This document shows positions 19,151 through 46,126 of a stretch of 64,000 nucleotides of DNA, one piece after another. The first letter of the stretch is position 1. The number at the start of each line of letters is the position of its first letter. The notes beneath the pieces were generated by a model. The model was not told the DNA's origin. It searched no databases and worked only from the letters and a program-made list of their open reading frames with translations. The stretch is taken from assembly GCA_916048095.2 (NCBI GenBank), contig OU696596.1, positions 3,707,195-3,771,194 on the forward strand, written 5' to 3'. A program made the position numbers and the translations under genes. The DNA comes from Sacculina carcini (taxonomy: Eukaryota > Arthropoda > Thecostraca > Sacculinidae).

Positions 19151-19561
19151 TATAATAACAAATATCACACATCTAAATAAATTATACCATCCTACTGGAA
19201 ATTTTATTTTCTACAACACCGTATAAATTTTAATTTTCCAGACTGCATTCAAAAAAGTTACGGCGGTATGAAGTCAAAATGACAAAGTCAAAAACACAAA
19301 AATTGCACTGAAAAACGGATATATACCAATATTATACCAATTGAACAGATATATTATACCAATTGAACGGATATATTATACCAATTGAACGGATATATTA
19401 TACCAATATTATACCAATTGAACGAATATATACCAATATTCTTCTTGTGTGATCGTGTATAGTTGAATTGTGTATTGAATGCGAGCCGGTCACTCTCTCG
19501 CCGCTGATTGGTTGTGGCGGTGGCGTGAGGCCTATGCGTGTGCGTGTGTATGTGTGTGTAT

Positions 19562-19593
<32 letters not shown>
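19151..19593 (+). repeat. Module D, 5' part
   Basis: Lead-in, several AATTGAACGGATAT repeats, GC block and an interrupted GT tract (19540-19593). The tract then passes into the duplicated segment. Confidence 0.6.
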
Positions 19594-20305
19594 GCTCCCG
19601 TGTGTCACGGGAGTTTTGTTTAAAAATAGATTTTTATAGGCAAAATTTTTCAATTCAGGCACGCTCCAACAAATTTTACACTCGCGAAAGGAGCATATCG
19701 AATTTAACTAATCAAACCATTTAAGTCTCAGACATTTGACGGATGTTGCTAAGCTAACTCGGACCGGCCAGACAGCCCCAAAAGGAGGGCATATCCGGAG
19801 AAAGTACGTATGGTCATCCTATAACAGGGGTTGGTAAACTTTTTTGCTGAGGACCGGATAACTTACTAAGCCCCGAGTGTGGGCCGAATAAACATTATTT
19901 GCAACAATTGCAAGCCAGAACGAATGCTCCGGGAAATAAGACCAAACAACTTAACTTGGTATTTCATGTTAGTATCGGGTGATTTTCGTTTAACGTAAAA
20001 ACAAAAATAAAAAAATGTTTATTTACTTGAAGGTAATCAAAGAAGCTTCGTTCATATATTAAATCAAGCAAACTCAAGCATCGTCGGCGGGCCGCAGTTT
20101 GCCGACCCCTGACCTATATTAAGCCGACTTTGCTATCGATCATTGCAACCAGGCTCTCTCACTAGTTGAATAATATCCAACAAGTACTCAATTGAACGGA
20201 TATTTACCAATATTCTTCTTGTGTGATCGTGTATGGCTGAATTGTGTATTGAATGCGAGCCGGTCACTCGCTCGCCGCTGATTGGTTGTGGCGGTGGCGT
20301 GAGGC
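19594..20305 (+). repeat. Duplicated segment, left copy
   Basis: Starts CTCCCGTGTGTCACGGGAG, carries a 287-bp hAT element, and ends in the GC block preceding a GT tract. The same segment lies at 23661-24375 with only scattered differences. Both copies start and end in GT microsatellite. Confidence 0.8.
19825..20111. mobile_element. 287-bp nonautonomous hAT element, copy 1
   Basis: Terminal inverted repeats CAGGGGTTGGTAAACT and, at the right, AGTTTGCCGACCCCTG. The flanks TCCTATAA (19817-19824) and ACCTATAT (20112-20119) are an imperfect 8-base target duplication, 6 of 8 matching. No coding region. Confidence 0.8.
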
Positions 20306-20420
20306 CTATGCGTGTGCGTGTGTGTGTGTGTATGTGTGTGTGTTTTTTTGTTGTTTTTTTTGTTTTTTTTGAGACACAAACAAATATATTTACAAACGTG
20401 TACACATATTTACAATACTA

Positions 20421-23279
20421 CTATAAAACAATGGAGGCGGCGTTGCCACGAATGACGGCCAGGCTTATTCGTTGTCTAAGCCAGGCCGTCTCTCGCGGCT
20501 CCCCTGAACGCTCACTTATTCTGCCGCCCAGGAGCTTCACGAAGTCGTCCAGGGATGCCCCCATCACGCCGGTGGTCTCGATGGCCAGCGGCACGAAATC
20601 GTACCGCTGGCACAGTTCTGAGTAGCGCCGCCGCTTTCGGACTTCCGCCGCCTGCGCTGCTACCCCGGGAGTGACCGCGCCGTCCAGCAGATGTGTGTCA
20701 CAGAACGTGTTGACGCAGGTCACATCCCAGAGCAGCGACTTGCCGTGTCGCACCGGGAACACGGTGATTCCGTCCGGTCGGCGGCCGTCGCCGCGGTCCA
20801 GGCCTCGTGGCTCCATCACCGCGGCGATTCCTGCCGACGCCAAACTGCGGCGAATGATGTTGTTCAGCGCCGTGTGGCGTGGCAGGCGGCCGGCATTGCG
20901 ACTGCAGGAGAGGCTATGGTGGCCCCACCTGTCAGTTGTGGCACCGCAGCGACACCTGTGCGGCTCTTGCACTGCGGCACCAAGTCGCAACGCCACGCCG
21001 ACTCGGACGGCTTCGTCTGGCAGCAGCAAGCCGAGGCTGGCGACAGGCAGCGCTGACAGCCAAGCGCCACTGTGAGGAGCGGACGCGGCCAGGAGACGGG
21101 CTCGGCACAGCTGGTTCGCGCTTCCGAGGAGATGTTGTTGGCGGACGGAGGAAGATCGGTCGTCTAGGTGGCGCTGGTGCAGTGGCTCGCTCGCGCTGAA
21201 GTCCGGGCACATGGTGTCCACGAACTCCTCGATGGCTGCCACCAGAGAGCCGGGTCTGTCACCGCTTGTGCGGTGGTTAATGAGACAGACCAAGTCTCGG
21301 GTAGCTTCCAGCGAGGCGATGTGGGCAGGTAGTGCCACGTCGCTCAGCCGTCTGGCTCCGATGCCTCCGTGGCGGACCGGAAGAGAAGCCTGCAGCCACT
21401 GTGCGTCTGACATGGCGACATTGCAGCAATCGCTGATGGCCGATCTCAGCTGCTCGTCGATGTCACCCATTTGTTCGCGGGCCTGGTACACCGGCGCTGC
21501 TCTCAGTAGGTATATTGCCCGCGGAACCGATGCGTACCTGCTGAGAAAAAACAGCGCCGGGTGCGAGCCGATGTTGACTGAGCGCTGGATCAGCAGGGAC
21601 GTTTGGTGCTCGATTTTGTTGAGCGCCTCTGCAATGCCGCCAGTCTGCACTGGTGCGCCGAGCAGATGGAGGTCAGAGAGCGGCGTGACTGTGGCCGAGG
21701 CAAGCAGTGATGTGGCGGCCGCGTTAGAGTCTTCGGTATCTGCTGGTCGTGTGTCAGTGGCTGGACCCAGACTGAAAACTTCGCATTTGCCGGCGTTTAG
21801 CTCGAGGCCCATGCTGCCGAGGGCCGGGATCAGGTGGCTGACGTCTGCAAGCACCACTTCCCTGGGGCCTGCCAGTGTGGCGTCGTCCAGGTACCACAGG
21901 TTCAATGGCGACTGGAGAGACTGGGCCACTGGGTCGACGGCGAGGGCGAACAAGATGGGCCCGAGCGGGTCTCCCTGCTGTACACCGCGACAGGACCAGA
22001 TTCGCGTGGTGCCGTGGTACAGTGGGGTTGGCTGGCCGTACGCCTGCTGGACGAGCGGCAATGCTGCGGGGAAACGACGGGCGACTTCGTCGAGCAGCGC
22101 GCGCCGACTGAGGGTGTTGAAGGCGTTGGTCACATCCAGCTTCAGCAGAATGTGACCATGCCGACCGTTAGCCTCATTGACGAAAGCGCGCGTGGCGTGC
22201 ACGGCCGCTTCGCAGCCCAGCTTGCACCCCACTCCGAGCTGAACGGGGCGCAACTGCTGTGCGACTGCGCTCGTCATTTTGCCAGCGATCAGTTTGCTGG
22301 CGAGGCGCCGCAAAACACTGCCGACAGCTACTGGGCGCAGCCCGCCGGACTTCTTGCGCAATGCGATTAGTCGCGCGCTGTAGAATGCACCGAGCACGAA
22401 GTCCGGGATGCGACCCTGTACACAACAGTTGCACAGCTGCGTCAGTGCCTTCAGCAGCTGGGCACCAGCTTCAGCCGTCTGTGGCGCGATGAGCTGGCGG
22501 AGATGTAGCGGCCGTATTCCGTCCAGTCCTCCCGATGAGCCTTTGGGCATCGAGTGCACGACGGAGCGGATCTCGTGCTCCTCAAAAATCGGCAGTGTTC
22601 CGGCGTCATGCATCTGCAGCTGCTCGTCCGGCAATGCAGGCGGGTGCTTGCGCTCGAGCTCGGCGGTCACTGCCTCGTCGTCCCCGGCCAAGCAGTCGCT
22701 GGATGTCAGCAGGCGGAGAGCTGCGCCAATGTCTCCATCGGCGCACTTGGCTCTGACGCCGCGGGATCTGGCCTCGTCTTCGTCGTGCTGTGATCGCACT
22801 CGGTTTTGTGTGCCCCGCTTCTTCCTTGCTGCTGCGTCGGAGCTGATCGGACCCGTCAAGGCGTATGACAGCAGCTTCCACCAGGCCGAGAGGGAGCGCT
22901 GTTCCAGAGCCGCCGTGATGTGCTGTGCGAGGTTGGCTGCCACCCGATGACGCAGCGCACGTGGGACGTGCTGACGCACTCGGCGTTTCAGTCTGAGCTC
23001 GGCAAGCGCCGCAGCCAGGTCTGTCGGAGTAGTGGTGTTAACGTCGGCTGGCGGGTCAACGTCGCCATCCGCACCGCGGCTCTGCATGCACGCACCGCAA
23101 TGCCACACCGGCAAGACGTCGGCTTGTGCCCGGGTGATTCCCACGCAAGTGAGGTGGAATAACCGCTCACATTGCGCGCAGGAAATCACCCACCTTCTGC
23201 TGTTGGCAGTGCCGCAGTGATGACACGGCTGCGCGGGGTCGGATCCCGTGTCTGCGCTGGGGGCCCGCTCGGCCTGAAT
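20421..23279 (-). CDS. PHD finger - reverse transcriptase - restriction-like endonuclease polyprotein
   Basis: About 952 residues downstream of an in-frame TGA. Numbered from the ATG at 23507, a canonical C4HC3 PHD finger uses C95, C98, C110, C113, H118, C121, C137 and C140. The RT shows motif A LKLDVTNAFN, motif B GVQQGDPLGPILFALAVDP and catalytic YLDD at about 539-542. The C-terminus has a Cys/His cluster starting C852/C854, then RPD at 910-912 and WDV with D928, the PD...D signature of the restriction-like endonuclease of R2/R4/NeSL-type LINEs. The protein would nick a target and reverse-transcribe its own RNA there. After the stop the first ATG is codon 141, past the PHD finger. The PHD finger would therefore be lost unless the stop is read through or is a recent mutation. 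Minus-strand reading is certain; the clade within REL LINEs is not. Confidence 0.85.
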   Translation of the reverse strand: MQAERAPSADTGSDPAQPCHHCGTANSRRWVISCAQCERLFHLTCVGITRAQADVLPVWHCGACMQSRGADGDVDPPADVNTTTPTDLAAALAELRLKRRVRQHVPRALRHRVAANLAQHITAALEQRSLSAWWKLLSYALTGPISSDAAARKKRGTQNRVRSQHDEDEARSRGVRAKCADGDIGAALRLLTSSDCLAGDDEAVTAELERKHPPALPDEQLQMHDAGTLPIFEEHEIRSVVHSMPKGSSGGLDGIRPLHLRQLIAPQTAEAGAQLLKALTQLCNCCVQGRIPDFVLGAFYSARLIALRKKSGGLRPVAVGSVLRRLASKLIAGKMTSAVAQQLRPVQLGVGCKLGCEAAVHATRAFVNEANGRHGHILLKLDVTNAFNTLSRRALLDEVARRFPAALPLVQQAYGQPTPLYHGTTRIWSCRGVQQGDPLGPILFALAVDPVAQSLQSPLNLWYLDDATLAGPREVVLADVSHLIPALGSMGLELNAGKCEVFSLGPATDTRPADTEDSNAAATSLLASATVTPLSDLHLLGAPVQTGGIAEALNKIEHQTSLLIQRSVNIGSHPALFFLSRYASVPRAIYLLRAAPVYQAREQMGDIDEQLRSAISDCCNVAMSDAQWLQASLPVRHGGIGARRLSDVALPAHIASLEATRDLVCLINHRTSGDRPGSLVAAIEEFVDTMCPDFSASEPLHQRHLDDRSSSVRQQHLLGSANQLCRARLLAASAPHSGAWLSALPVASLGLLLPDEAVRVGVALRLGAAVQEPHRCRCGATTDRWGHHSLSCSRNAGRLPRHTALNNIIRRSLASAGIAAVMEPRGLDRGDGRRPDGITVFPVRHGKSLLWDVTCVNTFCDTHLLDGAVTPGVAAQAAEVRKRRRYSELCQRYDFVPLAIETTGVMGASLDDFVKLLGGRISERSGEPRETAWLRQRISLAVIRGNAASIVL

Positions 23280-23507
23280 TCAGACTGCTTGGCAACGGGC
23301 TAGACGGCATGGCGCGCACGATCTGTCGTGCGGAGTGAGACGGCAGCTGCCTCCACGGTGGCACTGTCTCTCCCGCACGCCGCTGTCCTGGTGTCGCCGC
23401 CAGAATATGTCGCATGCTCTGCAGAGAGCCACATCATTGTGCGTCTGTCGCACTCCGTTTTTAGAGTCACAAACAGCGCACGACAAATGATGTAGCTCTT
23501 GCGTCAT
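23280..23507 (-). CDS. Nuclear-receptor-like C4 double zinc finger (N-terminal domain of the LINE)
   Basis: 75 residues from the first ATG, then TGA. The cysteine pattern matches a nuclear receptor DNA-binding domain. Finger one is C10, C13, C29, C32 followed by DIFWRR (receptors: GFFRR). Finger two is C49, x5, C55, x8, C64, x2, C67 followed by CRLARCQAV (receptors: CRLxKC..VGM). Spacings differ slightly (x15 instead of x13; x8 instead of x9). The stop sits exactly where receptors have Gly of VGM. The downstream PHD-RT frame is the same frame, so the whole was probably one protein. A role in target DNA recognition is an inference. Family resemblance is by motif only; I cannot run a profile search. 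Confidence 0.75.
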   Translation of the reverse strand: MTQELHHLSCAVCDSKNGVRQTHNDVALCRACDIFWRRHQDSGVRERQCHRGGSCRLTPHDRSCAPCRLARCQAV

Positions 23508-23523
23508 TGCAGGCTGCAATTAC

Positions 23524-24375
<852 letters not shown>

Positions 24376-26395
24376 GCGTGTGCGTGTGTGTGTGTGTGTG
24401 TGCTCCCGTGAGTCACGGTGTGAGTCTAGGAGTCTTGTTCGAAGGGTGGTAATGCTGCGACCTCTGGTAGGCACGCGTGGGGCAGTGATGCCCACGCGCG
24501 CCTACCTGTCATACAGTTTTAGTGTTTGAGTTTTGTAACATAAAGGTTTAGTTATATATGTTTGCTACAATTCCTCAAATAATGTTTGTTAAACATTTCC
24601 TCAATTTGTACAATTCCCCAAAAAATAATGTATGTTTGATACAATTCCTCAATTCCTCAATTTTTCCTGCTGACAACCAATTTCCTCTCTGTACAAACGC
24701 CATGTGGTCTCATATACGCTTTGATTATTATTATTATTTATAATTACAGGCAAGTTCAGTAGAAAGAGATGAGCGCAAGCACTATTATCACCATGCGGTG
24801 GCCTCATGTACCGTAAACTGACCAAAAGATACAGATGGTTTGAGAAAAACGAGTTTAGTTAATGAGTGAACCCATGCACAACCCAAGCGAAACGCTTAAA
24901 TCAGAGCAGATGCATTGTCGACAAATTGGCAAATTCGGCGACTAAATTGGCTTGCCCACTGTTTTCACTCGCTTGGCTACACACCCCACAAGATTTAAAG
25001 TAACATTTGTTCGACGGCTAACTTCTTGTTCTCCAACGAGCATTTAGTAACACTTGCACCAACTCCAACACTTGCTCGCACTTTACTCCTCGTGTTCTGT
25101 ATATTTTCTCTATATCGTCTGTATCGTTCAATTTAGACAATTGGAATAATTACGATTAGAATTATTACTGGGAACAAAATAAGATTCTTTATCCAAATTG
25201 TGTCTTGCAATTATTCTGATATACAGTAGCAAACCATAGTCATGAAAACTGAATGATATCTCTCTTTAAGCTAAGCGTAATGATAATTATCAGCACCCGC
25301 ACATAATACTATGGCTATTACTACTATCTCGTTCAGTACAATTTCTCGACCCAGTGATATTCAGCCGAGTAAAATAATGCTGTGACATATTCTTTAATGC
25401 AAGTTATAACAGTGGTAATTCTGCATAATTACTCCGAGGCGAAACTGTGAAAATTCGTGAGCAAAAAATAATTACACTACATCACTAATAATTTTGCTAT
25501 TGATGTCATTATGCACAGGATCAACATCAATGGACTAGTACTTGTATAAGTAGTGGTATATTGATGTACTGACGTTTTATATTGTATAGCACTAGCACTA
25601 GTATATTGTATTGTACTAGTATATTTATGTACCAGTATATTGATGTACTAGTATATTTATATACTAGTATATTGATGTACTAGTATATTTATATGATATA
25701 AGTACTTGATATAGAGTAACAAAAACCACTAATTCGCCAACTAACTAGCCTAATAAATAATAAATATCAATTATTAATCAGTAAATAACTTGCCTAATAA
25801 CTAGAAAATAATAAATATCTATCATTTTCCATCTTGCTAAAATTATCTTCTTATACCTGCTTCACGCACCTACAGTAAGAGTAACTTTCCGGTTTTTCAC
25901 AACTTCTCCATTCTTCTATATCCATACTAGATCTTGTTGAAGTGGAAACATGATGCAATGATATTCAGTGTCCACAACCAGCCAAATGAAACAATTAATC
26001 ATGCATCAAATTGTTAGTATTTAGTATAAAAAAATGATGCATATATTAGAGTAAGCATAGCTTAACCATACCTTGTGGAGCTGAAAATTCGGTAACGAAG
26101 AATGAACACGTTGTTAGTTCATACCTAATACAATATGATAATGAAAGTTGGCCAATACAGTGGTGCACTAGGACAACAAGGTAGTGAAATAATCATCAGT
26201 GGTTGGTATTTGTACGATATTGTGACAATATGATGGCGCTATTTTATTTTACTTTCTGTTTTATTTTACTTTTTTTTCTATTTCTCATCAACTAAATATC
26301 ACACATCTAAATATATTATACCATCATACTGGAAATTTTGTTTTCTACAACACCGTATAAATTTTAATTTACACATTAATAGAACGTTCAATAGA
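24376..26395 (+). repeat. Module D, long copy
   Basis: Continues from the duplicated segment with a short GT tract, the GC hairpin at 24469-24503, and the full AT-rich part, closely following 15577-17650 but with a shorter TACTAGTATAT array. No gene. Confidence 0.7.
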
Positions 26396-29099: not shown

Positions 29100-29362
29100 T
29101 CAGAGGCTCGTGACTACCGCCTTCCAGTTGTCATATGTCTTCTTAAACAGTTGTGTCGTTGGCTGTTGTACTATGTCGCTTGGCAACCTATTCCATCTAT
29201 CTACTGCTCTATCTGGGAAACTATATTTTTGGATGTCCTTTTTAATCCTGCGTTTTTGTAGGCCAAAACTGTGATTCCTATTAGATTTTGAGAATTGAAA
29301 CAACTTCTGATTTTCCATTTTATCCTTCCCTGTAAGACATCTATAAACTGAGTTTAAAACCC

Positions 29363-29366
<4 letters not shown>
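29100..29366 (-). pseudogene. LINE RT C-terminal fragment, copy 2
   Basis: Same fragment as 28147-28413 with one residue changed (Asp for Asn in FPDRAVDRW). It is flanked by GT tracts on both sides, the right one about 80 bases long. Confidence 0.75.
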
Positions 29367-29438
<72 letters not shown>

Positions 29439-30420
29439 GTGAGCGCTTTTGAGACCCTCGGGTGAAATGCGCGGTATAAATGTCTTAATGTAATGTAATG
29501 TGTGTGTGTGTGTGTGTGTTTGTATGTGTGTGTGTGTGTGTGTGTGTACATTACACATCAAACAACGAGCATTTAGTAACACTTGCAACAGCTCCAACAC
29601 TTGCTCGCACTTCACTGCTCGTGTTCTGTATATTTTCTCTATATCGTCTGTATCGTTCAATTTAGACAATTGGAATCATTACGATTATAATTTTTACTGG
29701 GAACAAAATGAGATTCTTTATCCAAATTGTGTCTTGCAATTATTCTGATATACAGTAGCAAACCATAGTCATGAAAACTGAATGAAATCTCTCTTTAAGC
29801 TAAACGTAATGATAATTATCAGCACCCGCACATAATACTATGGCTATTACTACTATCTCGTTCAGTACAATTTCGCGACCCAGTGATATTCAGCGGAGTA
29901 AAATAATGTTGTGACATATTCTTTAATGCAAGTTATAATGTCATATGCAGTTATATGTCATATCTTGCTATATGCAAGCTATTGATGTCATTATGCACAG
30001 TATTAACATCAATTTACTAGTACTTGTATAAGTACTGGTATATTGATGTACTTATATTGTATATTGTATAGCACTAGTATATTTGTGTACCAGTATATTG
30101 ATGTAATAGTATATTGATGTACTAGTATATTGATGTACTAGTATATTTATGTACTAGTAGTACTAGTATTTATGTATGTATTTATATGATATAAGTACTT
30201 GATATAGAGTAGCAAAAGCCACTAATTTGCCAACTAACTTGCCTCATAAATAATAAGTATCAATTATTAATCAGTAAATAACTTGCCTAATATCTAGAAA
30301 ATGATAAATATCTATCATTTTCCATCTTGCTAAAATTATCTGCTTATACCTGCTTCATGCACCTACAGTAAGAGTAACTTTCCGGTTTTTAACAACTTCT
30401 CTATTCTTCTATATCCATAC
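29367..30420 (+). repeat. GT tracts and module D, left of the transposon
   Basis: GT tract, LINE 3' tail (about 29441-29502), second GT tract, then module D from CGAGCATTTAGTAACAC to ATATCCATAC. Module D is cut there by the Tc1/mariner element and resumes at 33223. Confidence 0.65.
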
Positions 30421-30422
30421 TA

Positions 30423-30534
30423 TACCATTTCAACTTCAAAATGAGAATAATCAACTTCAAAATGGGAACAGTCAACTTCAAAATGAGAATAATCAACTTC
30501 AAAATGAGAATAGTCAACTTCAAAATGAGACCAA
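30423..30534. repeat. Left terminal iteron block
   Basis: Five tandem copies of TCAACTTCAAAATGAGAATA, with GGGAACAG-type variants, at 24-base spacing. Likely transposase binding sites by analogy with other iterated transposon ends. Confidence 0.8.
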
Positions 30535-30985
30535 GATGTTTATCGCAATATATCCAGTGAATTATTACTGAAAGTATTTTCATGACATTAGCTAAGCAAA
30601 CCACAGTATAATACGAACACAAAAATATAAATAAATAAATAGATCGAAACAAAAATAAAGCATGTAAGTGTGGTACAAATACAACAATGAAATCTTATAT
30701 ATAATTGAGTTCCAGTAAACAATTGTGCGTATTTAAATATTGACTGCATATGTTTGAGATAAAGCACATTTTTGTGAATGAATTTTTGTTGAAATAGTAT
30801 GAAAAAATTCACAAATGTATGACAATCATTCTCCTCAGTTTCAGAGATACGTATATACGAACATGATAATAACTTTAAAACTGCATTTAAATACTCATAA
30901 CACTGTTTTACAGTATAAAATATTAATATCAAGCTTAATTATTATCTGAATCATAAATCTTATTATGAAATTTCAAGATATGATT

Positions 30986-31092
30986 AGTCAACTTCAAAAT
31001 GAGAATAGTCAACTTCAAAATGAGAACAATCAACTTCAAAATGGGATAATCAACTTCAAAATGGGACTAATCAACTTCAAAATGAGACTGAA
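30986..31092. repeat. Internal iteron block upstream of the transposase gene
   Basis: Five more TCAACTTCAAAATGRGA units in the same orientation as the left end, about 280 bases before the transposase ATG. The position suggests autoregulation of the transposase promoter or use as an alternative end (inference). Confidence 0.75.
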
Positions 31093-31373
31093 ACATTGCG
31101 TTGAACTGAAAATAATAAGCTGAAGACATTTTCGAATAATTTATTATGATTTTAATGTTTTTTCACGAAATAAAATCACCGAATAAATCACCCAACACTT
31201 GATTATTTTTAATAAATTTGTCTAATAAGTGATATATTTGTGAAAAGTTATCGAGTTTCTGCTTCAGGCCGGTTATAGCTGGAATATTGAAGGCTGACGC
31301 TGTGTTTTCGTTTCCCGCATCACATATTTGCATTGCGTGTTTTGATATCACAGTTGTTTTTGAGCCAATTATA

Positions 31374-32435
31374 ATGAGCGGGCGTACCGTGAATTATATT
31401 AAAAAATCTGACTCCAAAGACAAACAAATTCAAATAGTGGCTGCACATTCGTCGGGCGGTGACTGGAGGCAGCTGGCTAGAACGTTGGGAGTCGCCAAAT
31501 CAACTGCTTATCGCTGGATATCTAATGAAGACCATGAAGACTCTCGTGGAGGCTCAAGGCAAAGGAAAATACATGAGGACCACATAAAGTGTATGGAAGA
31601 TTGTGTGGAGGAAAACCCGCGTATTACGCTAAAAGAAATAACGGAGAAAATTCGCCAGCAATTCAACGTACAAGGTTCTAAGGAGTGTATTCGCCGTCAG
31701 CTTGAAAAGATGCTCTTCACAATCAAGCAAATGCGATTTGAACCTGAAAGGGCAAACTCAATACAAAACAAGCAGAAACGAGCAGAATATGCAAGGAGAT
31801 TGTTGGAACTGCAATCCAACATGCTCCCCGTCATATATATGGACGAAACCAACTTCAATATGTTTATTTCGCGCAATTACGGTCGATCAAGAGCCGGGTC
31901 ACGATGCACGACCGTCGCAGCTGGTAGTCGTGGAGCAAATGTACATGTTATTGGCTGCATAACCAATCAAGGGCTTCTTCATCATCAAATCCGCCGAGGA
32001 TCGCACAAAATCAATGATGCGAACGAGCTTGTGCGCCAATGTCTCCAGGCGGCAAAAATAACGTTTGGCGGACCCGTGGTGCTTGTGGTTGATAATGCAC
32101 CATGCCACAATCAAATTGAGCTAGTGTTCGCCGAGGACGAGTACAAATCTCATCATTTTCTACGTCTGGCTCCATACAGCCCGATGATGAATGCCATCGA
32201 GATGGTGTGGTCCCAATTGAAGAGCGAGGTGAAAAGAAAACTAACCGACCAGCTGCCAACAATTTTGACTAGCAGAAATTATGCCATTTCGCAAGCAGAA
32301 CAAAGATTATCGGCATTGGAGGCGATAATTTCGGAGAGTTTAGGAAATGTGAGCGCACAAAATTGCGCCCGCTGTATTGCACACGTTCAACAACATCTCT
32401 CGTCTGCACTGGAGATGCGAAATGTGTTGTTTTAA
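31374..32435 (+). CDS. DDE transposase, Tc1/mariner-IS630 superfamily (copy 1)
   Basis: 353 residues from the first ATG (a longer frame begins at a TTG and is less likely). The N-terminus has a helix-turn-helix of the homeodomain-like type around residues 30-60 (LARTLGVAKSTAYRWISN), for binding the iterated ends. The catalytic triad is D157 in YMDETNF, D240 in VVDNAPCH and E276 in MNAIEMVW. Between D240 and E276 there are 35 residues, so by my count the signature is DD35E, not the usual Tc1 DD34E. The APYSPMMNAIE box corresponds to the SPDLNPIE box of relatives. The frame is intact and identical in both copies, so the enzyme may be active. Subfamily within Tc1/mariner is not resolved. Confidence 0.9.
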   Translation: MSGRTVNYIKKSDSKDKQIQIVAAHSSGGDWRQLARTLGVAKSTAYRWISNEDHEDSRGGSRQRKIHEDHIKCMEDCVEENPRITLKEITEKIRQQFNVQGSKECIRRQLEKMLFTIKQMRFEPERANSIQNKQKRAEYARRLLELQSNMLPVIYMDETNFNMFISRNYGRSRAGSRCTTVAAGSRGANVHVIGCITNQGLLHHQIRRGSHKINDANELVRQCLQAAKITFGGPVVLVVDNAPCHNQIELVFAEDEYKSHHFLRLAPYSPMMNAIEMVWSQLKSEVKRKLTDQLPTILTSRNYAISQAEQRLSALEAIISESLGNVSAQNCARCIAHVQQHLSSALEMRNVLF

Positions 32436-33109
32436 TGCACCATGTACATAGATAAACTTGTTGTGTTTGTTTGAATAAATGAAAAAATGTATCTTAATTT
32501 GTCTCTCGTAATGATTTACAGAAAACAATCGCAGTATTAGTCAGAGCTGCAACTGCAAAGTCTTAAAGTCTTGAATGCAGTGACTATTAATTTCAACTTA
32601 TAATTTCAACTTGCATATTCTTACTTTGTTCCCTTTCATATATCATTCAACATGGAGTTAGCTCGCAAAAGAGAGGAAATTTCAACTTAGCATGCTCATA
32701 GTTAAGTATATAGTTAAAGTTATAATTGTTTTGTCAACAAATATCCGTATACTTGTAGTGTTATGGGTGATTTATTCCTATACATTTGTTTACTCTTATA
32801 TTATGATTTATTCTTATGCAGTTATTGCTATTTGAATGAATTTTTGAAGCATATAAAATATTCCTCTACCACACAAAACAATTATTTGCTAATAAGTGCG
32901 CTAAATTGTAATCCAGATACTTAATACTGAACGCTTAAGGTTATTCTACTGGAGCTCAATTAGCTAATTCAAATTACTTTAACTTCATTGCTAAATGTAA
33001 AAAATAATGCACAGATTTGTCATGATTATTGTATTTATTAGTTTTTATGTTTTAATACATTTTTTGTTCTTAATTAATTAAAATTATGCAAGTAAAGTCA
33101 TAAAGAACA

Positions 33110-33220
33110 CGGTCTCATTTTGAAGTTGACTATTCTCATTTTGAAGTTGACTATTCTCATTTTGAAGTTGATTGTTCCCATTTTGAAGTTGATTAGTCCC
33201 ATTTTGAAGTTGAAATGGTA
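33110..33220. repeat. Right terminal iteron block
   Basis: Five 24-bp iterons in inverted orientation relative to the left block, ending GTTGAAATGGTA. Two degenerate TTTCAACTT words also occur inside at 32590-32690. Confidence 0.8.
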
Positions 33221-33222
33221 TA

Positions 33223-33864
33223 GATCTTGTTGAAGTGGAAACATGATGCAATGATATTCAGTGTCCACAACCAGCCAAATGAAACAATTAATCATGCATC
33301 AAATTGCTAGTATTTAGTATACAAAAAATAATGCATACATTAGAGTAAGCATTGCTTAACCATACCTTGTGGAGCTGAAAATTCGGTAACGAAGAATGAA
33401 CACGTTGTTAGTTCATACCTAATACAATATGATAATGAAAGTTGGCCAATACAGTGGTTCACTAGGACAACAAGGTAGTGAAATAATCATCAGTGGTTGG
33501 TATTTTTACGATATTGTGACAATATGATGGCGCTATTTAATTTTACTTTCTATTTTATTTTAATTTTTTTTCTATTTCTCAACAACTAAATATCACACAT
33601 CTAAATAAATTATACCATCATACTGGAAATTTTGTTTTCTACAACACCGTATAAATTTTAATTTACACATTAATAGAACATTCAATAGAACATTTTATAA
33701 TCATGGTAAGAATCATGGATAAAATATTTACATAATTATAATGTACTCACCGTAACCATAACCATTCCCTTCAATACGTCAACGATACATGATGAGCACA
33801 TACAAATATAATATCAGAAATGAGATTGACCAACATTTGCCTGTGTAAAATTTTCGGATCTACT
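33223..33864 (+). repeat. Module D, right of the transposon, and joint
   Basis: Resumes at GATCTTGTTGAAGTGG and runs through the ACACCGTATAAATTTTA tail and the AT-rich joint to the fold-back element. No gene. Confidence 0.65.
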
Positions 33865-34188
33865 ACCCTTTTAGCCAACGAACCATTTTGGCCAAACACT
33901 CAGCGGACGAAATACGATGCGATCAATATCGACATTGTCTAACCAAACCTAACCAAACCTAACCAAGGCTATTCTAACGATTTGTTTGTGTTCAAAAATT
34001 TCAAAGCCACTGAACTACGTACAGCTGAGTAAAGATTGGCCAAGATGATCACTCGCTTAACTTTCAGTCACTAGATACACCAGTGTCAGATGCACTCGTA
34101 ATATGTAAAATTTTAGCCAATGTCGATATTCATCGCATCGTATTTCTATCGCCGAGCGATGGCCAAAATGTTCGTTGGCTAAAACGGT
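33865..34188. mobile_element. Fold-back element, copy 3
   Basis: Inverted arms as in 2563-3004 with the short AACCA core. Identical by eye to 43350-43673. Confidence 0.65.
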
Positions 34189-34635
34189 CGTAACCCCACT
34201 GTGTGTATGCGCTGTTAATGTTGATCGTGTGTGTTGGACCTGCGTCACCTGAACAGGTTTCGTGAGTGTTACGTGAGTTACGTGGTCACGACGGTTAGGA
34301 CGTTGTTTTCATTGCTGTTCCATTGCTATTTACATCTGGCTAACTCTTATTGCGAATTGGATATTACAAGTGCCTCAAATAGACATCACGTTTTTGAACT
34401 ATTAAACATGCCATTGTGCCACCCAGATAGACAGGTGCAAGAATTCGCAACAAAATTGCAAATTTCCAAGTGAAATGTAAAACATGCTGGATCACAATTG
34501 CAACTACAATAGATGTATAGGTTCGTAGAAATATTTTCTAGTAGACGCAGAAATTGAATGACGGCCTGTTTGCGTAAAATTATACGTAGACAATTCATTT
34601 GTTAGCAAGTCATATTGACATATTATCTACTAGAT
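34189..34635 (+). repeat. Module C
   Basis: Module C with its GTG-started 80-codon frame at 34231, followed by the stretch that contains the hAT target. Confidence 0.6.
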
Positions 34636-34896
34636 GAGTGGTTCTTAACCTGTGTGGGCAATTTCCTACTGGTGGGAAATGGAAGATTTGCCAAGTGGGA
34701 AGCTAAAGGTCGGACAAAAGGAGAAATGTGTGTTTTTAACAATTCAAATTCGTATATTTTTGTGTCTAATGACCTCTTGACATTTCCTTTGATGTAACTA
34801 CTGACTTTACTGAATTTATTAGCGCTGTTGTGTGGACAATGAAGAGATGACTAATTAAGGAATGGGGAATCAGAGAAACTAGGTTAAGAACCACTG
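34636..34896. mobile_element. 261-bp hAT MITE, copy 2
   Basis: Same ends and target duplication as 27343-27603. Confidence 0.75.
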
Positions 34897-36474
34897 TGCT
34901 AGATGATATTATCACTTCGTGTGTTTCGTCCACTGGTCTCAATGCTGCATCTTCCGCGAAAACATAATCCAACATAAAAATATATCTGATGTGCTACACC
35001 GCTCTTTCTTATGTGCGCGCTCTGAACGAGCTATCGCGTAACAAAACTATCTGTTTATATCTGCTTTCACACTCGTAATAGTAACTTTCAGGTTTTTCAA
35101 AACTTATCTATTCTTCTATATCATCTATATTTGTCATTCTGAGTTATGTAGGATATTGATCAGTGAGTTATTTAAATATTTAAAAACTCAATATAAATAT
35201 TTGAAATCCAACGACTTCTAAGACTGTTTTTTAAGTCAATTAATCTTTCTTTTGTTTCAGTTTATATATTTGAATTTTCATATTTTGCTTCTGAATGTGA
35301 TTGAAAATCAGGGTTCGCAGCCATAGTTGCTTTGAAATCTTCCTGCTGAGTTCTCTCATCACATTCTTTTTCTTCAATTTTCAGTTCAGTTTGTATATGA
35401 TTTAATTTAATTTAACTTTAACTTTGTCTATAAATATAAGTGCTGTCCATGGATATATGTACTATTTTCTGCTTCATAACCTAAGCATAACCTAACCTAA
35501 CCTAACCTAACCTAGTGAAATAATCATAGGTGGTTGGTATTTGTACGATATAGTGACAATATGATGGCGCTATTTTGTTGTTGCTGTTGCTATGAATTAG
35601 TTAGACCAGATTCTCACCTTGGCGTGATGCCGTTGCTGTCCACAAAACAATCAATCAATCATCAATCACAAACACACACGCACACATACACACTAAACTA
35701 GGACAACATATATATATATATATATAAATATAAGTGCTGTCCATGGATATATGTACTATTTTCTGCTTCATATCTGTTTTGTTGATATGGCGGGCTGAAC
35801 ATTTTAGCCCCGCCCCCATGGCTATCGGCCGGTTTTCCCGTTTTCCGTCAGCGCCCACCCCTTTCCACGCACTGAGGTGCCAACTAATTCTGTGTTGCTC
35901 TCATACTCTGTCTTTGTTGTCGCCCATTGGACATTTTGCTTTGCGATATGTGTTTAACAATGAGCTCTCAATAAATTGTTCTCACATGTGTTTTATAGTG
36001 TATATTGTGTTTATAGTGTGTTTTATAGTGTTTTATAGTGTTTTATGGACAACAAGGAAGTGAAATAATCATAGGTGGTTGGTATTTGTACGATATAGTG
36101 ACAATATGATGGCGCTATTTTGTTGTTGCTGTTGCTATGAATTAGTTAGACCAGATTCTCACCTTGGTATCCCGATGCTGTCCACAAAACAATCAATCAA
36201 TCATCAATCACAAACACACACGCACACATACACACTAAACTAGGACTACAAGGCAGTGAAATATTCAAGTCTTAGTTTAATGATTTTTTATTTTGACAAA
36301 ATATTTTCCCTCAGCCCGCCTCATATTTAAGTGTACACGGGGCCCGTTTTTTTGGGTCACCCTGTATTCACAATACTACATTCCAATGGAGGTGTGTGTA
36401 TGTGCTAGTGTATGTGTGTGTGTGTGTGTATGTGCTAGTGTATGTGTGTGTGTATGTGTGTGTGTGTGTGTGTT

Positions 36475-36521
<47 letters not shown>

Positions 36522-36537
36522 CTGTGTTGGATCTACT
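34897..36537. other. Noncoding stretch with short AACCT array, local duplication and GT tracts
   Basis: No gene seen. It contains a small AACCT array (35485-35515) and a direct duplication of about 180 bases (35517-35697 and 36057-36242). The 360 bases between them include a TA tract, CAAT repeats and a possible solo LTR (about 35784-35982, TG...CA, with AATAAA near its end). An interrupted GT tract (36392-36520) follows. The solo-LTR idea rests only on end form. Confidence 0.35.
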
Positions 36538-36590
36538 ACCGTTTTAGCCAACGAACCATTTTGGCCAAACGCTCAGCGGACGAAATACGC
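36538..36590 (+). mobile_element. Fold-back element, isolated left arm
   Basis: ACCGTTTTAGCC to GACGAAATACG only; the element is broken here by the LINE fragment. The same break is in unit 2 (46017-46069). Confidence 0.55.
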
Positions 36591-36657
36591 TTGATGAATT
36601 CTTGATATCTGGTCCTGTCATTCTTTATCTGGTTTGAAACACTATTATTCTATGGTC

Positions 36658-37276
36658 GACATTTGTCATTTTAACATCTACCAATGACGCCCACAAATGG
36701 TGGTCAACGTTGAAATCGTCAGTGTTTGGACATGACCTGTCCGTCCCTCCTTTATTTTCAGCGAACGGTGAGCTCAAAAGCAGCCCAACAGAGAAGGCAG
36801 AGTTGATTATGGATTTCTTCAATACCAAGCAATGTCAAGGGTCCATTCCGTCTGACGATTCATCTGTCTTCGCCCCGAAAATCAAAGACATTGCCTTCCG
36901 ATCAAAAGAAGTGGCCAATCTCATGAAAGATCTTGATGTCCACGGAGGAACAGACCCTCTGAATATGTTTCCGCTGTTTTTCAATAACACGGCAGATACT
37001 CTAGTTCCGAAGCTCAGTGCTGTTTTCAGGCGCTTGATAAAGACTGGTTCGTTTCCATCCTGTTGGTGGGTTGCGAATATCACGCCCATACCAAAAGGAA
37101 CCAATTCAGCTGATGTTGCAAACTACCGGCCGATATCAATTACGCCGATTCTGTCCAAAATATTCGAGCACTTGATATCTTCCAGACTGTCCAAGTACCT
37201 GGAGAGCAACAATCTGCTGTCGGGAAACCAATTTGCATACCGCAAAACGCAATTTGCATACCGAGGTCATACATAG
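36658..37276 (+). pseudogene. Non-LTR RT fragment, copy 1
   Basis: About 205 residues covering the linker and the first RT motifs of a LINE ORF2: WWSTLKSSVFG, a VANITPIPKG block, the NYRPISITPILSKIFE block and NQFAYRK. It ends at motif A, so palm and catalytic residues are missing. The end contains a small tandem repeat (QFAYRKTQFAYRG). The fragment lies inside the tandem unit and has a near-identical twin at 46127-46745. Confidence 0.75.
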
Positions 37277-38596: not shown

Positions 38597-38859
38597 TCAG
38601 AGGCTCGTGACTACCGCCTTCCAGTTGTCATATGTCTTCTTAAACAGTTGTGTCGTTGGCTGTTGTACTATGTCGCTTGGCAACCTATTCCATCTATCTA
38701 CTGCTCTATCTGGGAAACTATATTTTTGGATGTCCTTTTTAATCCTGCGTTTTTGTAGGCCAAAACTGTGATTCCTATTAGATTTTGAGAATTGAAACAA
38801 CTTCTGATTTTCCATTTTATCCTTCCCTGTAAGACATCTATAAACTGAGTTTAAAACCC

Positions 38860-38863
<4 letters not shown>
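38597..38863 (-). pseudogene. LINE RT C-terminal fragment, copy 3
   Basis: Same sequence as 29100-29366. The following GT tract is shorter than in unit 1. Confidence 0.75.
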
Positions 38864-38923
<60 letters not shown>

Positions 38924-39905
38924 GTGAGCGCTTTTGAGACCCTCGGGTGAAATGCGCGGTATAAATGTCTTAATGTAATGTAATGTGTGTGTGTATGTGT
39001 GTGTTTGTATGTGTGTGTGTGTGTGTGTGTGTACATTACACATCAAACAACGAGCATTTAGTAACACTTGCAACAGCTCCAACACTTGCTCGCACTTCAC
39101 TGCTCGTGTTCTGTATATTTTCTCTATATCGTCTGTATCGTTCAATTTAGACAATTGGAATCATTACGATTATAATTTTTACTGGGAACAAAATGAGATT
39201 CTTTATCCAAATTGTGTCTTGCAATTATTCTGATATACAGTAGCAAACCATAGTCATGAAAACTGAATGAAATCTCTCTTTAAGCTAAACGTAATGATAA
39301 TTATCAGCACCCGCACATAATACTATGGCTATTACTACTATCTCGTTCAGTACAATTTCTCGACCCAGTGATATTCAGCGGAGTAAAATAATGTTGTGAC
39401 ATATTCCTTAATGCAAGTTATAATGTCATATGCAGTTATATGTCATATCTTGCTATATGCAAGCTATTGATGTCATTATGCACAGTATTAACATCAATTT
39501 ACTAGTACTTGTATAAGTACTGGTATATTGATGTACTTATATTGTATATTGTATAGCACTAGTATATTTGTGTACCAGTATATTGATGTAATAGTATATT
39601 GATGTACTAGTATATTGATGTACTAGTATATTTATGTACTAGTAGTACTAGTATTTATGTATGTATTTATATGATATAAGTACTTGATATAGAGTAGCAA
39701 AAGCCACTAATTTGCCAACTAACTTGCCTCATAAATAATAAGTATCAATTATTAATCAGTAAATAACTTGCCTAATATCTAGAAAATGATAAATATCTAT
39801 CATTTTCCATCTTGCTAAAATTATCTGCTTATACCTGCTTCATGCACCTACAGTAAGAGTAACTTTCCGGTTTTTAACAACTTCTCTATTCTTCTATATC
39901 CATAC
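38864..39905 (+). repeat. GT tracts and module D in unit 2
   Basis: Counterpart of 29367-30420. Confidence 0.65.
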
Positions 39906-39907
39906 TA

Positions 39908-42705
39908 TACCATTTCAACTTCAAAATGAGAATAATCAACTTCAAAATGGGAACAGTCAACTTCAAAATGAGAATAATCAACTTCAAAATGAGAATAGTC
40001 AACTTCAAAATGAGACCAAGATGTTTATCGCAATATATCCAGTGAATTATTACTGAAAGTATTTTCATGACATTAGCTAAGCAAACCACAGTATAATACG
40101 AACACAAAAATATAAATAAATAAATAGATCGAAACAAAAATAAAGCATGTAAGTGTGGTACAAATACAACAATGAAATCTTATATATAATTGAGTTCCAG
40201 TAAACAATTGTGCGTATTTAAATATTGACTGCATATGTTTGAGATAAAGCACATTTTTGTGAATGAATTTTTGTTGAAATAGTATGAAAAAATTCACAAA
40301 TGTATGACAATCATTCTCCTCAGTTTCAGAGATACGTATATACGAACATGATAATAACTTTAAAACTGCATTTAAATACTCATAACACTGTTTTACAGTA
40401 TAAAATATTAATATCAAGCTTAATTATTATCTGAATCATAAATCTTATTATGAAATTTCAAGATATGATTAGTCAACTTCAAAATGAGAATAGTCAACTT
40501 CAAAATGAGAACAATCAACTTCAAAATGGGATAATCAACTTCAAAATGGGACTAATCAACTTCAAAATGAGACTGAAACATTGCGTTGAACTGAAAATAA
40601 TAAGCTGAAGACATTTTCGAATAATTTATTATGATTTTAATGTTTTTTCACGAAATAAAATCACCGAATAAATCACCCAACACTTGATTATTTTTAATAA
40701 ATTTGTCTAATAAGTGATATATTTGTGAAAAGTTATCGAGTTTCTGCTTCAGGCCGGTTATAGCTGGAATATTGAAGGCTGACGCTGTGTTTTCGTTTCC
40801 CGCATCACATATTTGCATTGCGTGTTTTGATATCACAGTTGTTTTTGAGCCAATTATAATGAGCGGGCGTACCGTGAATTATATTAAAAAATCTGACTCC
40901 AAAGACAAACAAATTCAAATAGTGGCTGCACATTCGTCGGGCGGTGACTGGAGGCAGCTGGCTAGAACGTTGGGAGTCGCCAAATCAACTGCTTATCGCT
41001 GGATATCTAATGAAGACCATGAAGACTCTCGTGGAGGCTCAAGGCAAAGGAAAATACATGAGGACCACATAAAGTGTATGGAAGATTGTGTGGAGGAAAA
41101 CCCGCGTATTACGCTAAAAGAAATAACGGAGAAAATTCGCCAGCAATTCAACGTACAAGGTTCTAAGGAGTGTATTCGCCGTCAGCTTGAAAAGATGCTC
41201 TTCACAATCAAGCAAATGCGATTTGAACCTGAAAGGGCAAACTCAATACAAAACAAGCAGAAACGAGCAGAATATGCAAGGAGATTGTTGGAACTGCAAT
41301 CCAACATGCTCCCCGTCATATATATGGACGAAACCAACTTCAATATGTTTATTTCGCGCAATTACGGTCGATCAAGAGCCGGGTCACGATGCACGACCGT
41401 CGCAGCTGGTAGTCGTGGAGCAAATGTACATGTTATTGGCTGCATAACCAATCAAGGGCTTCTTCATCATCAAATCCGCCGAGGATCGCACAAAATCAAT
41501 GATGCGAACGAGCTTGTGCGCCAATGTCTCCAGGCGGCAAAAATAACGTTTGGCGGACCCGTGGTGCTTGTGGTTGATAATGCACCATGCCACAATCAAA
41601 TTGAGCTAGTGTTCGCCGAGGACGAGTACAAATCTCATCATTTTCTACGTCTGGCTCCATACAGCCCGATGATGAATGCCATCGAGATGGTGTGGTCCCA
41701 ATTGAAGAGCGAGGTGAAAAGAAAACTAACCGACCAGCTGCCAACAATTTTGACTAGCAGAAATTATGCCATTTCGCAAGCAGAACAAAGATTATCGGCA
41801 TTGGAGGCGATAATTTCGGAGAGTTTAGGAAATGTGAGCGCACAAAATTGCGCCCGCTGTATTGCACACGTTCAACAACATCTCTCGTCTGCACTGGAGA
41901 TGCGAAATGTGTTGTTTTAATGCACCATGTACATAGATAAACTTGTTGTGTTTGTTTGAATAAATGAAAAAATGTATCTTAATTTGTCTCTCGTAATGAT
42001 TTACAGAAAACAATCGCAGTATTAGTCAGAGCTGCAACTGCAAAGTCTTAAAGTCTTGAATGCAGTGACTATTAATTTCAACTTATAATTTCAACTTGCA
42101 TATTCTTACTTTGTTCCCTTTCATATATCATTCAACATGGAGTTAGCTCGCAAAAGAGAGGAAATTTCAACTTAGCATGCTCATAGTTAAGTATATAGTT
42201 AAAGTTATAATTGTTTTGTCAACAAATATCCGTATACTTGTAGTGTTATGGGTGATTTATTCCTATACATTTGTTTACTCTTATATTATGATTTATTCTT
42301 ATGCAGTTATTGCTATTTGAATGAATTTTTGAAGCATATAAAATATTCCTCTACCACACAAAACAATTATTTGCTAATAAGTGCGCTAAATTGTAATCCA
42401 GATACTTAATACTGAACGCTTAAGGTTATTCTACTGGAGCTCAATTAGCTAATTCAAATTACTTTAACTTCATTGCTAAATGTAAAAAATAATGCACAGA
42501 TTTGTCATGATTATTGTATTTATTAGTTTTTATGTTTTAATACATTTTTTGTTCTTAATTAATTAAAATTATGCAAGTAAAGTCATAAAGAACACGGTCT
42601 CATTTTGAAGTTGACTATTCTCATTTTGAAGTTGACTATTCTCATTTTGAAGTTGATTGTTCCCATTTTGAAGTTGATTAGTCCCATTTTGAAGTTGAAA
42701 TGGTA
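39908..42705 (+). mobile_element. Tc1/mariner-IS630-type transposon, copy 2
   Basis: 2798 bases with TA at 39906-39907 and 42706-42707. Same iteron-built ends and internal block (40471-40577) as copy 1. It is flanked by the same host sequence, so it is a duplicate, not a second insertion. Confidence 0.92.
40859..41920 (+). CDS. DDE transposase, Tc1/mariner-IS630 superfamily (copy 2)
   Basis: 353 residues, identical in sequence to the protein at 31374-32435, with the same D157, D240, E276 triad and helix-turn-helix. Two intact identical copies in one array indicate that the duplication is recent and that this transposase could still be functional. Confidence 0.9.
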   Translation: MSGRTVNYIKKSDSKDKQIQIVAAHSSGGDWRQLARTLGVAKSTAYRWISNEDHEDSRGGSRQRKIHEDHIKCMEDCVEENPRITLKEITEKIRQQFNVQGSKECIRRQLEKMLFTIKQMRFEPERANSIQNKQKRAEYARRLLELQSNMLPVIYMDETNFNMFISRNYGRSRAGSRCTTVAAGSRGANVHVIGCITNQGLLHHQIRRGSHKINDANELVRQCLQAAKITFGGPVVLVVDNAPCHNQIELVFAEDEYKSHHFLRLAPYSPMMNAIEMVWSQLKSEVKRKLTDQLPTILTSRNYAISQAEQRLSALEAIISESLGNVSAQNCARCIAHVQQHLSSALEMRNVLF

Positions 42706-42707
42706 TA

Positions 42708-43349
42708 GATCTTGTTGAAGTGGAAACATGATGCAATGATATTCAGTGTCCACAACCAGCCAAATGAAACAATTAATCATGCATCAAATTGCTAGTATTT
42801 AGTATACAAAAAATAATGCATACATTAGAGTAAGCATTGCTTAACCATACCTTGTGGAGCTGAAAATTCGGTAACGAAGAATGAACACGTTGTTAGTTCA
42901 TACCTAATACAATATGATAATGAAAGTTGGCCAATACAGTGGTTCACTAGGACAACAAGGTAGTGAAATAATCATCAGTGGTTGGTATTTTTACGATATT
43001 GTGACAATATGATGGCGCTATTTAATTTTACTTTCTATTTTATTTTAATTTTTTTTCTATTTCTCAACAACTAAATATCACACATCTAAATAAATTATAC
43101 CATCATACTGGAAATTTTGTTTTCTACAACACCGTATAAATTTTAATTTACACATTAATAGAACATTCAATAGAACATTTTATAATCATGGTAAGAATCA
43201 TGGATAAAATATTTACATAATTATAATGTACTCACCGTAACCATAACCATTCCCTTCAATACGTCAACGATACATGATGAGCACATACAAATATAATATC
43301 AGAAATGAGATTGACCAACATTTGCCTGTGTAAAATTTTCGGATCTACT
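42708..43349 (+). repeat. Module D tail and joint in unit 2
   Basis: Counterpart of 33223-33864. Confidence 0.65.
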
Positions 43350-43673
43350 ACCCTTTTAGCCAACGAACCATTTTGGCCAAACACTCAGCGGACGAAATAC
43401 GATGCGATCAATATCGACATTGTCTAACCAAACCTAACCAAACCTAACCAAGGCTATTCTAACGATTTGTTTGTGTTCAAAAATTTCAAAGCCACTGAAC
43501 TACGTACAGCTGAGTAAAGATTGGCCAAGATGATCACTCGCTTAACTTTCAGTCACTAGATACACCAGTGTCAGATGCACTCGTAATATGTAAAATTTTA
43601 GCCAATGTCGATATTCATCGCATCGTATTTCTATCGCCGAGCGATGGCCAAAATGTTCGTTGGCTAAAACGGT
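43350..43673. mobile_element. Fold-back element, copy 4
   Basis: Counterpart of 33865-34188. Confidence 0.65.
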
Positions 43674-44120
43674 CGTAACCCCACTGTGTGTATGCGCTGT
43701 TAATGTTGATCGTGTGTGTTGGACCTGCGTCACCTGAACAGGTTTCGTGAGTGTTACGTGAGTTACGTGGTCACGACGGTTAGGACGTTGTTTTCATTGC
43801 TGTTCCATTGCTATTTACATCTGGCTAACTCTTATTGCGAATTGGATATTACAAGTGCCTCAAATAGACATCACGTTTTTGAACTATTAAACATGCCATT
43901 GTGCCACCCAGATAGACAGGTGCAAGAATTCGCAACAAAATTGCAAATTTCCAAGTGAAATGTAAAACATGCTGGATCACAATTGCAACTACAATAGATG
44001 TATAGGTTCGTAGAAATATTTTCTAGTAGACGCAGAAATTGAATGACGGCCTGTTTGCGTAAAATTATACGTAGACAATTCATTTGTTAGCAAGTCATAT
44101 TGACATATTATCTACTAGAT
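43674..44120 (+). repeat. Module C in unit 2
   Basis: Counterpart of 34189-34635. Confidence 0.6.
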
Positions 44121-44381
44121 GAGTGGTTCTTAACCTGTGTGGGCAATTTCCTACTGGTGGGAAATGGAAGATTTGCCAAGTGGGAAGCTAAAGGTCGGAC
44201 AAAAGGAGAAATGTGTGTTTTTAACAATTCAAATTCGTATATTTTTGTGTCTAATGACCTCTTGACATTTCCTTTGATGTAACTACTGACTTCACTGAAT
44301 TTATTAGCGCTGTTGTGTGGACAATGAAGAGATGACTAATTAAGGAATGGGGAATCAGAGAAACTAGGTTAAGAACCACAG
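44121..44381. mobile_element. 261-bp hAT MITE, copy 4
   Basis: Counterpart of 34636-34896 with two or three base changes, including C44293. Confidence 0.75.
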
Positions 44382-45929: not shown

Positions 45930-45989
<60 letters not shown>

Positions 45990-46126
45990 ACTGTGTTGGA
46001 TCTACTACCGTTTTAGCCAACGAACCATTTTGGCCAAACGCTCAGCGGACGAAATACGCTTGATGAATTCTTGATATCTGGTCCTGTCATTCTTTATCTG
46101 GTTTGAAACACTATTATTCTATGGTC
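44382..46126. other. Noncoding stretch of unit 2
   Basis: Counterpart of 34897-36657, including the short AACCT array, the 180-base direct duplication, GT tracts (shorter here) and an isolated fold-back arm. Confidence 0.4.

Follow-up and report, generated by a model that had tools for sequence, protein, structure and literature searches.

A LINE of Sacculina carcini that inserts in (AC)n/(TG)n microsatellites begins with a nuclear-receptor-type zinc finger and a PHD finger

Among long interspersed nuclear elements (LINEs), the Togen elements of fish are specific for (TG)n microsatellites and are grouped with LINEs that carry a restriction-like endonuclease (RLE) (excerpts of PMC4640811), the CR1/L2 elements possess a PHD finger in ORF1 that was proposed to aid general targeting (excerpts of PMC4120745), and BLAG elements have CCHH fingers (excerpts of PMC7650587). 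Here we describe a LINE in a 64,000-nucleotide stretch of the Sacculina carcini genome (contig OU696596.1, positions 3,707,195 to 3,771,194; the whole stretch is termed the window), the protein of which starts with a double zinc finger of the nuclear receptor type, followed by a PHD finger, a reverse transcriptase (RT), and an RLE. To our knowledge, the DNA-binding domains of nuclear receptors had been known only from the receptors and their close relatives. Among the open-licence PMC papers listed by our searches, as judged by title and opening of the abstract, none describes a LINE with a receptor finger, although Repbase may contain a consensus with such a finger, and our literature search surfaced no paper on a PHD finger combined with an RLE. 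The terms PHD and nuclear receptor have no occurrence in the Togen paper (PMC4640811), nor does nuclear receptor occur in the CR1/L2 paper (PMC4120745). Within that literature, what is new is the receptor finger in a LINE, whereas (TG)n targeting (Togen) and a PHD finger in a LINE (CR1/L2 ORF1) were already known; a first-pass annotation, made from the letters alone, had known of no described LINE family with a receptor-type finger, and within that literature this holds, while the PHD half is not new (excerpts of PMC4120745). The reading that we consider fairly likely is that the window contains a broken copy of an RLE LINE inserting in (AC)n/(TG)n, that a PHD-bearing ancestor captured a receptor DNA-binding domain, probably once, and that the finger most likely holds DNA near the nick while the PHD finger contacts the nucleosome.

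The element has a single open reading frame (ORF) and an A-rich 3' tail, and some of its copies are 5'-truncated. Its parts, in window coordinates and including untranslated regions (UTRs), are as follows.

20421..23507, minus strand: LINE ORF, a single frame interrupted by one stop and extending from the first Met (23507) to the terminal stop (20421-20423); homologous frames of ~1,030 amino acids are unbroken in other copies
23283..23483, minus strand: nuclear-receptor-type double zinc finger (zf-C4), residues 9-75 (Pfam PF00105; nuclear receptors in the PDB)
23280..23282, minus strand: in-frame stop, codon 76, directly after residue 75 (translation); missing from the 36 fetched copies with frames of at least 900 amino acids
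23088..23225, minus strand: PHD finger, C4HC3 (Pfam PF00628; Pygopus PHD in the PDB)
21771..22358, minus strand: RT domain, with the LDD catalytic motif at ~21882-21893 (Pfam PF00078; R2 proteins in the PDB)
20904..20954, minus strand: C-terminal CxC...H...C knuckle preceding the endonuclease (invariant residues in alignment A1; position by residue count)
20568..20816, minus strand: RLE, with RPD, then D and K (invariance in nine rows; Foldseek match of the P0001 model to R2 structures; position by residue count)
20343..20420, minus strand: short 3' UTR, then an A-rich tail that leads into (CA)n (sequence)
23508..23526, minus strand: remnant of the 5' UTR in this 5'-truncated copy (sequence compared with other copies)

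The frame thus passes from the finger (residues 1-75) through a stop at codon 76 into 952 amino acids with PHD, RT (WYLDDAT), and RLE (RRPDG...WDVTC). In Pfam, the finger scores 29.2 bits with zf-C4 (E 1.3e-6, cutoff 21.1), the sole family reported for it at E up to 10, the PHD finger 26.0 bits (cutoff 24.0), and the RT 63.4 bits (RVT_1). A PDB sequence search places the ORF nearest to R2 proteins and its PHD finger nearest to Pygopus. In an alignment of nine representatives from this genome (A1, see below) the LDD of the RT is invariant, as are the knuckle residues C852, C854, H863, and C868, which take the form CxC rather than CxxC, and the RLE residues R910 P911 D912, D928, and K958 (numbering of copy L012). 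On these sequence features, a LINE-type RT with xxDD, the knuckle, and PD...D...K, all of them present, the element is classified as an RLE LINE of the R2 group in the wide sense. Translation, Pfam, and the invariant residues bear out the first-pass annotation, which had read a receptor-type double finger, a PHD finger, an RT with YLDD, and an RPD...D endonuclease in one minus-strand frame; the domains do share that frame, but the stop after residue 75 had been overlooked.

Both the zf-C4 profile and a PDB search of the N-terminus, as that annotation had proposed, match nuclear receptors. With the window finger as query, the best PDB match is liver X receptor beta (E 1.3e-4), and each of the 57 rows with E no greater than 10 is, by name, a nuclear receptor or the DNA-binding domain of one. 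A profile of nine fingers (A4) retrieves 95 distinct PDB sequences at E<=1 (best E 1.3e-13); the matches span the whole domain, and the best 60 of the 95 are all nuclear receptors by name. The finger also occurs in two outside proteins, P0001 (zf-C4, 34.3 bits) and P0007, whose finger is the most receptor-like (56.3 bits, E 4.4e-15). The latter reaches 54.5 bits with the androgen receptor (AR) and scores alike against AR, COUP-TF, RAR, and NR5A, with no single closest receptor subfamily. In the reverse direction, the DNA-binding piece of the receptor P0121, which we take to be HR78-like, gave 72 matches with all 114 candidates scored, comprising the host's own receptor exons (best 78% identity) and LINE fingers at E from 1.2e-7 (C19:6728397, adjoining an RT match) to 9.5e-4 (L040). 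No protein was found in a homolog search with the 75-amino-acid finger alone, and P0001 residues 1-230 retrieved itself, P0121 (E 9.2e-3), and one fungal protein with a PHD domain. A scan of viral contigs gave 37 stretches fitting a pattern, with no relative among them. Judging from the Pfam score, the eight cysteines in receptor spacing, and the CRL..C...G end, we consider the LINE finger homologous to the receptor DNA-binding domain.

The 75-amino-acid finger was searched against the 264-Mb genome, yielding 180 candidates, and all of the 150 that were scored matched at E<=0.001. Open frames of at least 1,000 amino acids hold 48 of these 150 places, two of the 48 with a stop inside the finger stretch, although some frame lengths are inflated by runs of N (seen in L028, L034, and L038). 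We fetched 40 copies and aligned nine representatives, which fall into six groups (L012/L009; L032/L036/L029; L039; L041; L043; L044) and are 53-98% identical to L012 across the ORF. The C4-C4 spacing is kept in 37/40 fetched copies (not in L026, L040, and L048), and each of the nine rows retains all eight zinc cysteines. The longest frame reaches at least 900 amino acids in 36/40, none of them with the stop of the window copy, and on these grounds we reject a genuine two-ORF design. Among eight ORFs of this genome scanned with Pfam, all pass zf-C4 (27.4-38.0 bits) and seven pass PHD (L043 falls short at 21.2 bits, cutoff 24). The unbroken fusion of finger and LINE is therefore the usual state of the family; the place C20:288579, with a frame of 79 amino acids, perhaps has an interruption similar to that of the window copy. 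A missing zf-C4 score or other copies devoid of the cysteine pattern had been named in advance as contrary findings, and neither test refuted the reading; the joining of N-terminus and RT that had been asked about recurs in the 37 fetched copies that keep the finger pattern. When RT places were instead located with P0031, a LINE protein in which no finger was found, 45 of the 46 scored (of 1,762 candidates) had a finger match just upstream, partial in one, as compared by eye on coordinates; C3:836170 was the single place with none. At five further loci (C2:7902931, C20:7504603, C23:5034335, C7:5692390, and C36:1812111) there are fingers that share 43-45% identity with the domain of a real receptor; they lie within open frames of 287-766 amino acids and possibly represent more LINE families.

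Pairwise dN/dS ratios (nonsynonymous to synonymous substitution rates; NG86 method) were calculated for chosen pairs, with no significance test, and could be computed for the finger in 9 of 11 pairs, the other two being saturated. The finger gives 0.10-0.51 in 8 of the 9, although single values are noisy at short distances (2.20 for the RT in one close pair). These ratios suggest that the finger is under purifying selection, the fusion being retained in at least six groups.

The element inserts in (AC)n/(TG)n microsatellites. In the window, the target and an unoccupied counterpart are both preserved.

20312..20343, no strand assigned: (TG)n target microsatellite, left part (sequence)
23527..23660, no strand assigned: (TG)n target microsatellite, right part (sequence)
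19415..20336, no strand assigned: unoccupied copy of the host repeat (empty site), with a TG-rich array at 19538-19594 (flank matches)

The left flank (20189-20343) matches 19415-19571 at 94.9% identity and the right flank (23661-24402) matches 19595-20336 at 98.8%, and nothing but TG repeat separates the two matches. This host repeat is present as adjoining units (19329-20336 and 23661-24402), with internal tandem repeats of 22 and 33 bases alongside. Over two pooled junction sets, the A-tail runs into (AC)n in 41/49 scorable copies, so the element is not R2 proper, which is defined by insertion in 28S ribosomal DNA (rDNA). The first set consisted of the 36 copies with frames of at least 900 amino acids, in 31 of which the A-tail was recognisable (not in L014, L017, L029, L034, and L038); the 40 bases that follow it on the sense strand are (AC)n-rich in 26, (GT)n-rich in one, and below threshold in four. 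A copy reaches the (AC)n threshold in 5/6 groups. The second set held 20 copies, all of the window's own group; no end was found in two, and 15 of the 18 scorable ones have (AC)n, the misses being L050, L057, and L065, where L057 has 10 bases before the contig end, and L056 and L060, which have a flank in common, possibly stem from a single event. By comparison, among 40-mers drawn at random from the window, 0.75% reach the AC threshold and 3.6% the GT threshold. Upstream of the 5' ends of the element, (AC)n is common too. Copy L041 (C9:56500-61700) lies inside a (CACAAA)n array, not pure (AC)n.

To place the family, we searched for homologs with A1, scoring the 7,995 candidates that shared most words; 132 proteins matched at E<=0.001, and the best 120 were examined. 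In these 120, most of which are nameless and none of which is named Togen, the finger profile found P0001 and P0007 only (next best E 0.099). A tree of the RT-RLE core was built from 107 of the 120 proteins (at least 620 core residues matched; 13 dropped) and the nine rows of this genome; all trees were midpoint-rooted. The carriers and six further rows form one clade of 17 rows, with a Shimodaira-Hasegawa-like approximate likelihood ratio test (SH-aLRT) value of 100 in the full tree and support of 100/100 in a 51-row selection; the 12 rows of the clade in a 32-row selection are likewise supported by 100/100 under a mixture model. P0007 is the first-branching row of the clade. In Pfam, zf-C4 is found in 2, PHD in 18, and RVT_1 in 32 of 32 aligned proteins (E<=0.01). 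P0010 and P0031 show no zf-C4 but have a PHD finger ahead of the RT block; neither domain is present in P0066 and P0081, which lie further out in the tree; and P0040 starts within the RT part, so its N-terminus is uninformative. Since the carriers placed in the tree form one fully supported clade, surrounded under the midpoint root by PHD-bearing LINEs that yielded no finger, the best reading of these sequences is that a PHD-bearing ancestor gained the finger once, by capture rather than convergence, the direction of capture being inferred. The first-pass annotation had left capture and convergence side by side; the RT phylogeny that it proposed groups the finger carriers placed in the tree, and capture is preferred on that single clade, on the receptor-like P0007, and on the restriction of the finger to P0001 and P0007 among the best 120 homologs. 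Three of the sister LINEs (P0010, P0040, and P0047) carry a C-terminal ubiquitin-specific protease (UCH) domain, and the barnacle (Amphibalanus) entries P0040 and P0047, named ubiquitin hydrolases 38 and 2, bear an RT domain.

By analogy with R2 and from the junctions, the protein would bind its own RNA, the endonuclease would nick the TG strand of a (TG)n array, and the freed 3' end would prime reverse transcription from the A-tail. The receptor finger most likely holds duplex DNA beside the nick, because it stands where R2 keeps its N-terminal DNA-binding modules, and the PHD finger would contact the nucleosome. The modules of R2 contact target DNA. A structural model of P0001 (predicted local distance difference test, pLDDT, 85.3 overall, low in the finger) has R2 proteins at Foldseek ranks 1-7, and several of the R2 structures nearest to it were captured at target-primed reverse transcription. 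Methyl-lysine readers among PHD fingers tend to have W at a site where this PHD finger has FHLTC, so it possibly reads unmethylated H3. The finger may plausibly take part in target choice.

Several observations weigh against the reading of a captured finger holding DNA at (AC)n targets. The window finger itself was modelled from three aligned rows at a pLDDT of 44.9, which is not confident. One close finger pair with few changes (L012-L027) has a dN/dS of 1.59, and the two saturated pairs also count here. Junctions of L018, L025, L041, and L044 are below the (AC)n threshold, that of L044 being the only one seen of its group, and both ends of L035 (C18:3134600-3139800) have (GT)n on the sense strand, which shows that the choice of strand admits exceptions. 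No complete finger is visible in six of the 17 clade rows: P0002 starts with what appear to be the last finger residues, P0003, P0004, P0006, and P0008 start downstream, and P0005 has unrelated residues there. The placing of the clade among PHD-bearing LINEs depends on a midpoint root. Finally, the residues around the second cysteine pair read DNA bases in nuclear receptors, and in the LINE fingers the residues in and after the second CxxC vary (CRACDIFWRR, CPACKIFFSR, CRACQAFFGR, CPACRQFFSR, and others). Such variation between groups that use (AC)n suggests that the finger is not the sole target reader.

This variation also bears on a stronger proposal, in which the captured domain and the PHD finger constitute a two-part address reader, of DNA and of chromatin, for (AC)n integration, with the finger retuned in each family, so that the family would be a natural series of re-engineered fingers on one target-primed RT; we advance it only tentatively. 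The first-pass annotation had supposed target choice by both fingers: their presence in the LINE stands, their choosing the target is a conjecture, and the base-reading residues of the finger vary between groups that insert in (AC)n. It is also conceivable, if somewhat doubtful, that the finger came from a receptor and no longer reads the target, serving instead in binding of element RNA, dimerisation, or nuclear import, with (AC)n choice residing in the endonuclease and RT core. Under such a loss of reading one would understand why the zinc ligands, F35, R38, and C67 R68 L69 ... C72 ... G76 are invariant in the nine finger rows while base-reading positions vary, why five groups have copies above the (AC)n threshold despite differing fingers, and perhaps why fish have (TG)n-specific Togen LINEs (excerpts of PMC4640811), whatever their N-terminus may be. 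The indications that the finger is under purifying selection, the retention of the Arg after the second cysteine pair, and the target contacts of the R2 modules speak for a finger that still holds DNA.

That a C4-C4 finger born within LINEs merely came to resemble the receptor domain is very improbable, and we reject it: the modest zf-C4 scores of the family's own members (27-38 bits) and the low confidence of the finger model would fit convergence, but the match covers the domain from end to end, F, R, and CRL.KC..GM included, with the PDB and P0007 scores given above and zf-C4 as the only Pfam family for the window finger. Least probable is that a LINE landed beside an exon of a host receptor, or that the assembly is in error, as the stop between finger and PHD in the window copy might suggest; this is refuted by the finger pattern standing in the LINE ORF frame in 37/40 fetched copies on many contigs and by the same architecture in P0001 and P0007.

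Elsewhere in the window, a stretch of ~9.5 kb is seemingly present twice in tandem (~29100-37276 and 38597-46745), and two 400-amino-acid transposase frames, at 31233-32435 (DDE_3) and at 40718-41920, look identical by eye. At 50934-54772, a weak PHD frame (17.9 bits, cutoff 24) precedes an RT frame (122 bits), resembling a two-ORF CR1/L2-type LINE with PHD in ORF1.

The presence of the fusion in at least six groups indicates that a LINE is able to take up and retain a host transcription-factor reader. Related cores, a common microsatellite target, differing fingers, and sisters in which no finger was found provide a natural series in which target choice is testable. R2-type proteins are under development as gene-insertion tools, which lends practical interest to a module exchange that took place naturally at the DNA-binding end. 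For annotators, zf-C4 matches in animal genomes may be LINE fragments.

In comparison with known systems, the family shares (TG)n specificity with Togen, which lies near the NeSL and HERO clades, a likeness of target. It shares a PHD finger with the CR1/L2 LINEs, but these mostly have two ORFs and an apurinic endonuclease (excerpts of PMC4120745). Over the full length of the DNA-binding domain, the finger is like that of nuclear receptors (COUP-TF, RAR, AR, and the HR78-like P0121); the LINE ORFs differ in that the finger is fused to a retrotransposon polymerase and that no ligand-binding domain (PF00104) was found in the eight scanned at E<=0.5. The sister PHD LINEs P0010, P0031, and P0040 (barnacle) belong to the same RT-RLE lineage and are 41-50% identical to L012, whereas the C-terminal UCH domain of P0010 and P0040 is lacking in the eight scanned ORFs. 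With R2 of Bombyx and Taeniopygia (PDB 8gh6, 9nl3, and 9dou) the family has in common N-terminal DNA-binding modules, RT, C-terminal knuckle, and RLE; where R2 has CCHH and Myb modules and a 28S rDNA target (excerpts of PMC7650587), the Sacculina LINE has a receptor finger, a PHD finger, and an (AC)n target.

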